The position numbers were made by a program, and so were the translations under genes. The notes under the pieces are model-generated. The model did no database searches, had not been told where the DNA came from, and saw nothing but the letters and a program-made list of their open reading frames with translations. 32,546 nt of DNA from a virus, in the IMG/VR virus record IMGVR_UViG_3300008262_003150, positions 1 through 32,546 of that record; one strand, 5' to 3'. Below, in pieces: positions 9,898 to 13,051 of the stretch (position 1 is the stretch's first letter; each line of letters opens with the position of its first letter).

Positions 9898-10359
9898 TTA
9901 AACCTTTTTTGTTAACTCAGATTGATAAGTTCTTTGTCTCAATTCGGAAGAACTAAACCGATGTGTGCGAGAATTATAATATGTTTTAATGCCACGGGTG
10001 TCACAGATATCACGACCTGTTAAATGTTTGTCTTTATATTCTTCACCACAAATACGCATACTAATGGGTAAGAACATTAACAAATCTTCGAGGTCTTTTT
10101 CGGTATCATAGACGATAATCTCATCTACAAATTTGACAGCAGAAAGTTGAACATATCTTTCTACAATTGATTGAACTGGTTTGTTTTTGGTTTCTGGTCT
10201 ATCGATTGTTGGGTCTGTTTGCAAACCAACAATAAGATAATCACAGATTGACTTGCACTCAGCAAGCATTAGAATATGACCTGCATGAAGAAGGTCAAAA
10301 GTAGAACAGGTAAAGCCGATTGGCCGACCAATCATATCATCAGGTAATACTAGCATCAT
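9898..10359 (-). CDS. Cytidylyltransferase-like protein (TagD/GCT family)
   Basis: A 153-residue nucleotidyltransferase. It has GFTCSTFDLLHAGH with the HxGH motif at about residues 26-29, a CDYLIVGLQTDP strand, and RTHRFSSSELRQR near the end, equivalent to the R-T-x-G-I-S-S-T motif. These are the active-site elements of glycerol-3-phosphate or similar cytidylyltransferases, which transfer CMP from CTP to a phosphorylated alcohol or sugar. In a phage it could build an activated precursor for surface or DNA modification, or act on an NAD-type substrate. GGAGTTAT precedes the start. It lies 54 bases downstream of pqqA, with a hairpin between. Confidence 0.85.
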   Translation of the reverse strand: MMLVLPDDMIGRPIGFTCSTFDLLHAGHILMLAECKSICDYLIVGLQTDPTIDRPETKNKPVQSIVERYVQLSAVKFVDEIIVYDTEKDLEDLLMFLPISMRICGEEYKDKHLTGRDICDTRGIKTYYNSRTHRFSSSELRQRTYQSELTKKV

Positions 10360-10382
10360 ATAACTCCATTATCTAAAGGTTA

Positions 10383-10404
10383 GTCCGGTCAATTAAGACC
10401 GGAC
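10383..10404 (-). terminator. Perfect hairpin after pqqA
   Basis: GTCCGGTC and GACCGGAC form a perfect 8-bp stem around a six-base loop, 9 bases after the pqqA stop. On the minus strand it is followed by TAACCTTTAG, not a clean U tract, so it may be a weak terminator, a 3' end-stabilising hairpin or a processing site that sets the level of the short pqqA message apart from the cytidylyltransferase. Confidence 0.5.
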
Positions 10405-10413
10405 TCCTATTTA

Positions 10414-10485
10414 TTAGCGATTCATTACATACATTGTGACTTCGAATCCATAACGCATTTCAGTTGCAGTTGGTTTTGTCCACAT
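10414..10485 (-). CDS. pqqA: PQQ precursor peptide PqqA
   Basis: A 23-codon gene. The peptide reads MWTKPTATEMRY then GFEVTMYVMNR. It keeps the PqqA signature: N-terminal MW-x-KP, an acidic residue and Arg before the core, then G-x-E-V-T-x-Y and a terminal NR. Glu15 and Tyr19 are spaced exactly as the two residues that PqqE cross-links to make pyrroloquinoline quinone, and the 23-residue length equals the short proteobacterial PqqA. The ribosome site (AGGAG, six bases before ATG) is strong. It has its own leader hairpin (10507-10522) and probable promoter. No pqqB, C, D or E lies in the window, so the peptide would depend on host enzymes, or compete for them. Chance is unlikely given the full-length match. 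Confidence 0.88.
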   Translation of the reverse strand: MWTKPTATEMRYGFEVTMYVMNR

Positions 10486-10506
10486 GATAATCTCCTTTAT
10501 AAAAGA

Positions 10507-10522
10507 GTGGAATTATTTCCAC
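10507..10522 (-). other. Leader hairpin of pqqA
   Basis: GTGGAA and TTCCAC form a perfect 6-bp stem with a four-base loop, placed right after the expected transcription start and 21 bases before the pqqA ATG. A hairpin at the extreme 5' end often protects short messages from decay. Confidence 0.45.
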
Positions 10523-10530
10523 ACCTCTAT

Positions 10531-10557
10531 ATTATACTAAACTACAACAAATTTCAA
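10531..10557 (-). promoter_or_regulatory. Putative promoter of pqqA
   Basis: A perfect TATAAT (10531-10536) with TTGAAA (10552-10557) 15 bases upstream on the minus strand. The spacer is shorter than the optimum 17, so strength is uncertain. It lies in the 98-base gap between the rubredoxin stop and the pqqA start and would give a transcript of about 140 bases to the hairpin at 10383-10404. Confidence 0.5.
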
Positions 10558-10583
10558 TACAGAAAAGCATGAATTTATTATAG

Positions 10584-10718
10584 TTAAAACTCAACTAATT
10601 CATAATCTTCTTTACCAACACCACACTCAGGGCAAACAAAATCATCTGATAAATTTTCCCATTTGCCTTCTGTTTCTTCATCGTGAATATGACCACAAAC
10701 TATGCATATATGTTCCAT
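10584..10718 (-). CDS. Rubredoxin
   Basis: A 44-residue one-iron electron carrier. The four cysteine ligands are in two knuckles: CIVCGHIHDEE (Cys5 and Cys8) and CPECGVGKEDYE (Cys29 and Cys32). The typical G-x-W-x-x-L-x-x-D-F spacer and the D-Y-E (for D-x-F-E) end are kept. It overlaps the rubrerythrin stop by one base (TAATG), so the two are made together. Classical rubrerythrins carry this domain fused at the C-terminus; here the domain is a separate gene, and it is the expected electron donor to the di-iron protein. It could also serve other host or phage redox enzymes. Confidence 0.92.
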   Translation of the reverse strand: MEHICIVCGHIHDEETEGKWENLSDDFVCPECGVGKEDYELVEF

Positions 10719-11161
10719 TATTGCACCTCTTGTAACATTGTTTGATAAGCAGTTGCATGACGCTTTTCAACTTTAGCAAGAGCTGCAAATCGTTTTTCTG
10801 CTTTTGTTAAAACTATTTTAAATTGTTCAGCATGTTCTTTACTTTCTGCAATCTGCTCATTGAATTCGGATTTCTCCTGTTCAGATACCGCAGAAGCCAA
10901 AAATTCAGGATACATTGTGGTGAACTCATATGTTTCACCTTCGATTGCTTTTTCCAAACATTCTTTGGTGTTTGGTTTGCCAATCAACAACTCAAGGTGA
11001 CCCCATGCGTGGAGTAACTCTTGGTCTGCTGTGTGTTCAAAGTGTTTTGCAACATCTTCATAACCTTCTTCACGAGCAATTTTGGCGAAATAACGATATT
11101 TAATATGCGCCTGACTTTCTCCTGCCAATGCACTCTCAAGGTTTTTAATTGTGATACTCAT
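10718..11161 (-). CDS. Rubrerythrin (ferritin-like di-iron protein)
   Basis: A 147-residue four-helix di-iron protein, lacking the C-terminal rubredoxin domain of classical rubrerythrin. Ligand candidates are Glu14 (ALAGESQAHIKY), E-x-x-H in QELLHAWGH (Glu48, His51), Glu75 (AIEGETYE) and the Glu/His of ESKEHAEQF (about 109-112). Rubrerythrins reduce hydrogen peroxide to water with electrons from rubredoxin. Start at 11161 is chosen because GGAG lies seven bases upstream; the earlier ATG at 11173 contains that ribosome site. A promoter lies directly upstream (11205-11233). Together with the overlapping rubredoxin it forms a complete peroxide-reducing pair. Confidence 0.92.
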   Translation of the reverse strand: MSITIKNLESALAGESQAHIKYRYFAKIAREEGYEDVAKHFEHTADQELLHAWGHLELLIGKPNTKECLEKAIEGETYEFTTMYPEFLASAVSEQEKSEFNEQIAESKEHAEQFKIVLTKAEKRFAALAKVEKRHATAYQTMLQEVQ

Positions 11162-11177
11162 TTTAATCTCCATAGAA

Positions 11178-12086: not shown

Positions 12087-12569
12087 TTACGCAGCTGACT
12101 TCTCTTGTAGAAGTTGTGGTTTAAATTCTTTCAAATTTTCACCAATAGCAATCTTGCGTGGTTTCTTGTGTTCGGGAATAATATTCTCTAAACCAATTCT
12201 GAGAATACCATCTTTGAACTCAGCACCTTTCACTTCGATTGTATCTGCAATAGTGAGTGTTTTGGTGAAAGACCTTGTACCAATACCTTTGTGTAGATAT
12301 TGCACATTGCTTTCTTTTTCATCTTTCTCACCTTTTACAGTTAATGTACCTTCTTCAACTGAGATTTCAATTTCATCTTTAGAAAAGCCTGCAACGGCCA
12401 ATTCTACGATGTAACGAGATTCATCCAGTTTAAGAATGTTATGTGGTGGGAAATTAGAAACTGATTTTTGGACATCCATGCTCATTAGTCTTTCAACATC
12501 ATCGAAAAACTTATCAAAACCCAAAGTTGATTGGGTTAATGGTCCAAATGAAATACGACCTAGTGTCAT
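12087..12569 (-). CDS. Small heat-shock protein Hsp20
   Basis: A 160-residue alpha-crystallin-type chaperone. The N-terminal arm is MTLGRISFGPLTQSTLGFDKFFDD. The core (about residues 36-135) includes YIVELAVAGFSKDEIEISVEEGTLTVKGEK and the family hallmark GAEFKDGILRIGL. Such proteins hold unfolding proteins, and homologues are common in marine T4-like phages, where they may assist capsid folding. Start at 12569 follows AGGAG; the earlier ATG would contain that site. A TATAAATA late promoter precedes it and a strong terminator follows, so it can be a single-gene late unit. Confidence 0.93.
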   Translation of the reverse strand: MTLGRISFGPLTQSTLGFDKFFDDVERLMSMDVQKSVSNFPPHNILKLDESRYIVELAVAGFSKDEIEISVEEGTLTVKGEKDEKESNVQYLHKGIGTRSFTKTLTIADTIEVKGAEFKDGILRIGLENIIPEHKKPRKIAIGENLKEFKPQLLQEKSAA

Positions 12570-12602
12570 AGTTTTTTCTCCTTTTAAGCGAGTTATCAAA
12601 AG

Positions 12603-12625
12603 CGGCGACCCATTTGGCATCGCCT
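12603..12625 (-). other. Leader hairpin between regA and hsp20
   Basis: GGCGA and TCGCC pair around an inner CC/GG with an AAAT loop, followed on the minus strand by GCTTTTG. It could be a weak terminator of the regA unit or a leader structure of the hsp20 late transcript. Confidence 0.35.
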
Positions 12626-12643: not shown

Positions 12644-13051
12644 TCAATAATCTATTGATTTTTTACCTATATTGTATTTTGTGATTAGTTGCCAATCATC
12701 TTTTTCTTTGAAAGAAATAATCTTTATTTGATGTAAAGGTGCAATATTATCTTTCATCAAAATTGGATTAAGAATCTTTACAAGACCCCATTCTTCTAGG
12801 AGTTTTGCAATTGCGTTTCTTCTTTGAATATCATTCTCAGTCAGATTAGATGGTTTTCCATCTAACGCAAATAACTCTTTGAAATGCACGATATAATATC
12901 TGCCCTGCTTATGCAGAATGTGGCATGACTGGTACAACACTTTTTCCTTGCGGGAAGATACGCCAATTCTGGTAAGTGTTTCTCTTACCTTTAAAAAATC
13001 ATCTTGTTCCGTCAAGGTGACTTCTATAAATTTAGACAAGTCTACCATCAT
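12644..13051 (-). CDS. regA: RegA translational repressor
   Basis: T4 RegA binds the start regions of many early messages and blocks their translation. The 135-residue sequence matches T4 RegA in long blocks: DFLKVRETLTRIGV, KEKVLYQSCHILHKQG, YYIVHFKELFALDG, LLEEWGL and VISFK-like IISFKEKDDWQLITKYNIG. The start overlaps the gp62 stop by one base (TAATG) after GAGG. The order 44-(insert)-62-regA is as in T4. The downstream partner in T4 is 43, which here lies 4.4 kb further on behind inserted cargo. Confidence 0.96.
   Translation of the reverse strand: MMVDLSKFIEVTLTEQDDFLKVRETLTRIGVSSRKEKVLYQSCHILHKQGRYYIVHFKELFALDGKPSNLTENDIQRRNAIAKLLEEWGLVKILNPILMKDNIAPLHQIKIISFKEKDDWQLITKYNIGKKSIDY

Follow-up and report, generated by a model that had tools for sequence, protein, structure and literature searches.

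In the PQQ precursor peptide PqqA, a glutamate and a tyrosine with E-x3-Y spacing are cross-linked by PqqE (PMC10906245). Genomes of Methylophilaceae contain multiple pqqA genes, with 3 to 12 copies reported (PMC4109929), and the multiple stand-alone copies suggest that precursor dosage matters. A phage-borne copy has also been described. In the T4-like phage VP_266 from Lake Baikal, pqqA is accompanied by genes for a deformylase and a methanol dehydrogenase, and an enhancement of methanol oxidation was proposed (Coutinho et al. 2020, PMC7678222). That study reports one pqqA and covers neither its occurrence in phage isolates nor its conservation and regulation. The existence of phage pqqA has been on record since 2020 (PMC7678222), and what is added here is its wider distribution and its regulation. 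In the literature that we searched, the occurrence of pqqA in phage isolates of several lineages, its conservation, a shared leader RNA and a promoter element were not described. Methylophilaceae and members of the marine OM43 clade oxidize methanol and thereby contribute an important step to carbon cycling in aquatic habitats.

The stretch of DNA analysed here (the window) is the viral record IMGVR_UViG_3300008262_003150, a 32,546-base fragment of a T4-like phage with a G+C content of 35.1%. It resembles VP_266, which is also T4-like, carries pqqA and peptide deformylase and has a G+C content of 35%. The predicted host of VP_266 belongs to the Methylophilaceae (PMC7678222), the same family as inferred below for the window. 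VP_139 and VP_266 both encode a glycerol-3-phosphate cytidylyltransferase (PMC7678222), and the window contains a cytidylyltransferase of that type as well as a deformylase. The methanol dehydrogenase encoded by VP_266 has no counterpart that we could see in the 32.5-kb fragment. The window appears to stem from a phage of the VP_266 type, a likeness noted without direct sequence comparison.

Identification of pqqA in the window

The preliminary description of the window proposed a phage-encoded PqqA and gave the position of a 23-codon gene, but not its strand. The position was exactly right, and the gene lies on the minus strand, read from 10485 to 10414 (Table 1). The translation, MWTKPTATEMRYGFEVTMYVMNR followed by a stop codon, is an intact PqqA, and the plus-strand reading of the same interval does not give this peptide. 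The peptide scored 34.6 bits against Pfam PF08042 (curated cut-off of 21.1) and 35.2 bits against NCBIfam TIGR02107 (curated cut-off of 20). When the PqqA profile was searched against the record in six frames, this ORF was the sole match (E = 6e-9). The window contains a single instance of the pattern MWxKP-x9-EVTxY, which gave no chance matches in 100 dinucleotide shuffles, and Glu15 and Tyr19 of the translation have the spacing of the PqqE cross-link, as had been claimed. Neither PHROGs nor a sequence search of the PDB gave a match for the window peptide. The original observation is therefore confirmed at the level of sequence. The only point in favour of an artefact is that the ORF has just 23 codons. 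A chance ORF or bacterial contamination is ruled out by the E-values, the shuffles, the gene order shared with T4-like core genes in L045, L251, L346, L365, L368 and L372 and the deposited phage genomes described below, so the probability that the ORF is an artefact of either kind is negligible.

Table 1. Features of the pqqA locus (window positions, unless a locus is named)
Feature	Position	Strand	Basis or remark
HldE/glycerol-3-phosphate-type cytidylyltransferase, next gene downstream	9898..10359	-	kept neighbour in pqqA-bearing T4-like relatives
Terminator-like hairpin AGTCCGGTC-TTAATT-GACCGGACT, strong, 3' of pqqA, before the cytidylyltransferase gene	10382..10405	-	
pqqA, 23-aa PQQ precursor peptide MWTKPTATEMRYGFEVTMYVMNR	10414..10485	-	scores exceed the cut-offs of Pfam PF08042 and NCBIfam TIGR02107
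Shine-Dalgarno AAGGAG	10492..10497	-	sequence
5'-UTR hairpin TATAGAGGTGTGGAA-ATAA-TTCCACTCTTTTATA, abuts ribosome site	10498..10531	-	core stem 10507-10522
TATAAT-like -10 box	10531..10536	-	sequence; kept in L346, L365, L372, L267
Operator-like site CATGCTTTTC	10562..10571	-	25 nt before -10 box
Rubredoxin, next gene upstream of pqqA	10584..10718	-	Pfam PF00301
Rubrerythrin	10718..11173	-	Pfam PF02915
Hsp20	12087..12620	-	profile match and gene order
RegA translation repressor, T4-like marker	12644..13051	-	phrog_242, E 5.8e-62
Leader RNA examples	L045:6019-6057, L052:3033-3071, L027:811-849, L085:6668-6702, others; host loci L485-L505		

Genomic context and inferred host

The T4-like genes of the window encode a clamp, clamp loader, RegA, a gp47-like SbcD subunit, a late sigma factor, a helicase and a tail tube, and its DNA polymerase is ∼52% identical to those of cyanomyoviruses. 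T4-like genes of the window recur in approximately 20 pqqA contigs, and the peptide of one of these contigs (L251) is identical to the window PqqA. The order rubrerythrin-rubredoxin-pqqA is kept in L346, L365, L368 and L372, and in the last three it is followed by the cytidylyltransferase gene, which also adjoins pqqA in L045, L052, L267 and L284. In close T4-like relatives, pqqA sits between hsp20 and gp43. The window pqqA is thus encoded among phage core genes and has relatives with the same surroundings, as is required of an auxiliary metabolic gene. In a sample drawn by RegA rather than by pqqA, most relatives had much the same gene order and no pqqA, so the gene acts as a cassette that is plausibly tied to the host. 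The rubredoxin-rubrerythrin pair (window 10584-11173) is common in IMG/VR contigs; 347 relatives of the rubrerythrin were found there, and the 80 that were inspected mostly lack pqqA.

A 4.6-kb stretch around the window pqqA had matches in 177 of 187 Methylophilaceae genomes. Nearly all of the matches listed correspond to positions 10420-10499, i.e. pqqA and its ribosome site, at 80-90% nucleotide identity, mostly 82-90%, and a few correspond to hsp20. A Methylophilaceae host is inferred for the window's phage from the association of pqqA with phages of this family, the host-like DNA and the likeness to the Baikal phage. The assignment is indirect, as only the pqqA and hsp20 fragments of the tested stretch resemble Methylophilaceae DNA.

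Distribution of pqqA among phages

Among 50,697 phage records searched at the protein level, PqqA was detected in nine records of Methylophilales/Methylophilaceae phages (four of Melnitz, and Venkman, MEP301, MEP401, MEP402 and P19250A), which represent several unrelated lineages. Besides these, the matches comprised one metagenomic phage (Manatee Spring) and two contigs labelled Acinetobacter phage, and the 50,697 records contained no further true phage with a PqqA match. The matches to 'Acinetobacter phage MD-2021a' were set aside; the record inspected, CAKLQF020000010.1, is mislabelled, being a contig of bacterial DNA that contains the complete pqqABCDE operon. A query with PqqA of the alphaproteobacterial type found no phage among the phage records. 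When the regions around pqqA of MEP402, Venkman and MEP301 were used as blastn queries, the main or only DNA common to these otherwise unrelated methylophages was pqqA with its immediate surroundings.

A DNA pattern search of IMG/VR yielded at least 120 contigs with pqqA. The pattern allowed a gap of 25-31 bases, every match has the in-frame gap of 28, and all of the copies listed are intact 23-aa ORFs. Clustering by shared proteins, a rough single-linkage procedure, gave 18 groups at three or more shared proteins. None of the deposited methylophage records inspected carries a pqqA annotation, in line with the earlier expectation that annotation overlooks the gene in related phages, and a keyword search of the papers that describe Melnitz, MEP401/402 and MEP301 gave no mention of phage pqqA. 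The short length of the gene, only 23 codons, is the reason why it is missed. Its presence may also be useful as a marker of the host when a virus is uncultivated.

Conservation of phage pqqA and its pathway partners

With a search pattern that left both cross-linking residues free, Glu15, Tyr19 and the length of 23 aa were found in 115 of 115 viral copies among the matches listed, and the two residues are also invariant across 139 unique viral coding sequences. For these 139 sequences, pN/pS, computed on codons not fixed by the search patterns, was 0.25 (0.14 for close pairs); the corresponding values for host pqqA were 0.24 and 0.12. Viral pqqA is thus mostly intact and is under purifying selection like the host copies. 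In eight contigs of one subclade, pqqA reads MWTTPSATEMRFGLI followed by a stop codon, or ends in LIL and a stop codon; beyond codon 13 the sequence is unrelated, and Glu15 and Tyr19 are absent. In these contigs (L434, L445, L449, L461, L465, L466, L469 and L476), the leader RNA described below is still present upstream. According to the preliminary description, its interpretation would be refuted if related phages lacked the peptide or carried it in broken form. This condition was fulfilled in part, by the many T4-like relatives without the gene and by the eight broken contigs; otherwise, intact copies under purifying selection (pN/pS of 0.14-0.25) dominate.

The broken copies are relevant to the possibility that the phage peptide is a decoy that occupies host PqqD/PqqE, lowers PQQ and stops methanol oxidation or a PQQ-dependent defence. 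The leader part of PqqA that is expected to bind PqqD/PqqE is fully kept in the phages, and the eight contigs retain leader residues without Glu15 and Tyr19. A decoy, however, would not need the cross-linking residues, yet they are invariant in both sets of viral copies, and phage copies are like host copies at all positions. Moreover, the unrelated sequence after codon 13 looks like local breakage and not like a parallel design. We therefore regard a decoy as unlikely. Supply of a working substrate is favoured, in the absence of activity data, because of the invariant cross-linking residues, the host-like constraint and the host-like control signals described below.

Each of 50 pqqA-bearing phage records contained exactly one pqqA, and none of the 50 contained a PQQ alcohol dehydrogenase or a PqqE above cut-off. 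These records were chosen for pqqA and include one from each deposited lineage, and many are fragments. Weak matches to the PqqE profile in two phage records were far below cut-off, were also obtained in 14 of 14 control genomes and were taken as other radical-SAM proteins. Among Methylophilaceae, pqqA was found in 80 of 80 genomes, with 1-12 copies each; PqqE was above cut-off in 39 of 41 genomes, and PQQ alcohol dehydrogenases were matched in 40 of 41 (above cut-off in 36 of 41). At the family level, therefore, the inferred host carries PqqE and PQQ-dependent methanol-type dehydrogenases, the partners on which the preliminary interpretation depended. Host genomes with up to 12 scattered copies would also be compatible with passive hitch-hiking, in which a small, repeated host gene is often picked up and kept without benefit, and both the patchy occurrence of pqqA among T4-like relatives and the broken copies fit such a course. 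We nevertheless find it improbable, given purifying selection equal to that on host copies, the single intact copy in all 50 tested records (chosen for pqqA) and the presence of pqqA as the main common DNA of unrelated lineages.

Regulatory signals upstream of pqqA

The ribosome site of the window pqqA, correctly described as strong in the preliminary description, has comparable counterparts before nearly all viral pqqA copies. The 5'-UTR hairpin is kept in the sister phages L267, L346, L365, L368 and L372, and its core is present in L251, where it is cut by the contig end. Downstream of the gene, the terminator-like hairpin is followed by a T-run on the plus strand in the window and on the pqqA strand in L251. 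The promoter that the gene was proposed to have of its own received mixed support: a plain consensus promoter scan of the window pqqA gave no more matches than expected by chance (1 against 2.4), but the TATAAT box and the operator-like site are kept in sister phages. The claim thus rests on conservation in L267, L346, L365, L368 and L372. The operator-like site shows small changes among sister phages (it is AATGATTTTC in L365), and in the window it is one mismatch from a shared 10-base element, [CA]ATG[AG]TT[TA]T[CA].

This element, counted in either direction, precedes pqqA at a distance of up to 130 nt for 50 of 149 phage copies and 57 of 165 host copies; in random windows taken from these loci, its frequency was 1.0% (phage) and 1.6% (host). 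The element had first been noticed by visual inspection of the very sequences that were later counted, and its measured strength is therefore optimistic. In phages, it is often located 26 nt before a -10-like box. In the host, the dyad-like element reads CTCATGATTTTCATGAG or CTAATGATTTTCATTAG, and both Methylophilaceae and unrelated phages have it ahead of pqqA. It is probably the binding site of a host regulator.

In some phages, pqqA is preceded by a leader RNA, CUCAAG-[N4]-ACYU...CUCU-[N4']-UGAnCUG. Its general form, CUCAAG-[4-bp stem]-ACYU...UCU-[stem]-YGAnCUG, precedes pqqA by 31-46 nt in methylophages and in bacteria of the OM43 type. A scan of IMG/VR without a pairing condition gave 65 matches, in 63 of which the two 4-mers are fully complementary. 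A pqqA start follows 61 of these 63 leaders (eight belong to broken copies and two are interrupted by the end of a contig); the remaining two, which both lie at a contig end, had no start after them. Across 33 distinct sequences, each of the four base pairs varies on both sides and pairing is kept in 100% of cells, compared with at most 66% in slid controls. In 21 small Methylophilaceae genomes, the leader occurs once each, upstream of two tandem pqqA genes and with an inner covarying stem; in one further genome match (G033), the pattern is unpaired and there is no pqqA. Outside the Methylophilaceae, a sample of the order gave only matches that were taken as chance, the downstream genes of which were not examined. 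At the gathering threshold, Rfam 15 had no match at the pqqA leaders of 14 loci, and a search with E up to 10 returned one chance-level match (L045). The leader RNA was present in 9 of 100 loci searched, nearly all of them pqqA-bearing; a covariance model did not find it at pqqA of the window, which has a different leader hairpin.

The leader is a candidate for a new riboswitch or another cis-regulator. Riboswitch control of pqqA would have a precedent of another class, as a c-di-GMP riboswitch is listed before a pqqA in Methylophaga (PMC12530212). A broader proposal, that pqqA is a near-universal signature of methylotroph phages and that some of them took it together with a regulatory RNA, perhaps a new riboswitch for PQQ or another C1 signal, common to host and phage, remains tentative and may well not hold. 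Other RNA elements were also identified in pqqA loci: ROSE_3 RNA thermometers (Rfam RF02523) at phage hsp20 (L045:4506-4572 and L052:1445-1510) and two tandem glutamine riboswitch aptamers (Rfam RF01739) in a pqqA-bearing T4-like contig (L116:3696-3808, minus strand).

Discussion

We consider it likely that phage pqqA provides extra precursor for the host PQQ pathway during infection, its activity being untested. The phage would carry one working copy of host-type PqqA, translated during infection. Host PqqD would bind the peptide, host PqqE would cross-link Glu15 to Tyr19, and host proteases together with PqqB and PqqC would complete PQQ. As one peptide is consumed per PQQ, an additional strong pqqA unit could keep PQQ supplied, and PQQ-dependent methanol oxidation, the source of energy and of formaldehyde for C1 assimilation, may then continue while host transcription is disturbed. 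This interpretation, already put forward in the preliminary description, is supported by the data, although no activity was measured. The processing of phage PqqA to PQQ by PqqB-E, an altered host metabolism during infection and a limiting amount of PQQ in infected cells are all inferred. Some points stand against supply: hosts already have several pqqA genes, so that the benefit of an additional copy is not self-evident, and the gene is missing from most of the window's T4-like relatives and broken in one subclade. Moreover, the host of the window is itself inferred, and the record is a fragment.

Phages can reuse small host peptides, and the PqqA function itself is only inferred, which leaves room for a role outside PQQ synthesis, as a host-takeover peptide or an alternative RiPP precursor. 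Such a role is hard to reconcile with the retention of every PqqA-defining residue, with hosts that possess the matching enzymes and with promoter and leader signals that are those of host pqqA, and we hold it to be quite unlikely. Returning to precursor supply, if phages of these bacteria carry the PQQ precursor irrespective of lineage, infected cells probably face a bottleneck in PQQ supply, an idea that is testable with published phage-host pairs.

The auxiliary metabolic genes of cyanophages, such as psbA, are host-derived and keep host energy metabolism running. Phage pqqA differs from psbA in that its product is a peptide substrate that is consumed, and not an enzyme or a protein subunit. 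Bacterial PqqA (PF08042/TIGR02107), above all that of Methylophilaceae, is similar to the window copy in length, conserved residues, the promoter-like element and nucleotide sequence (up to 90% identity). Unlike bacterial pqqA, the window gene stands alone, away from pqqBCDE and within a cluster of phage replication genes. The extra stand-alone pqqA genes of Methylophilaceae (PMC4109929) are chromosomal, whereas the window copy is phage-borne.
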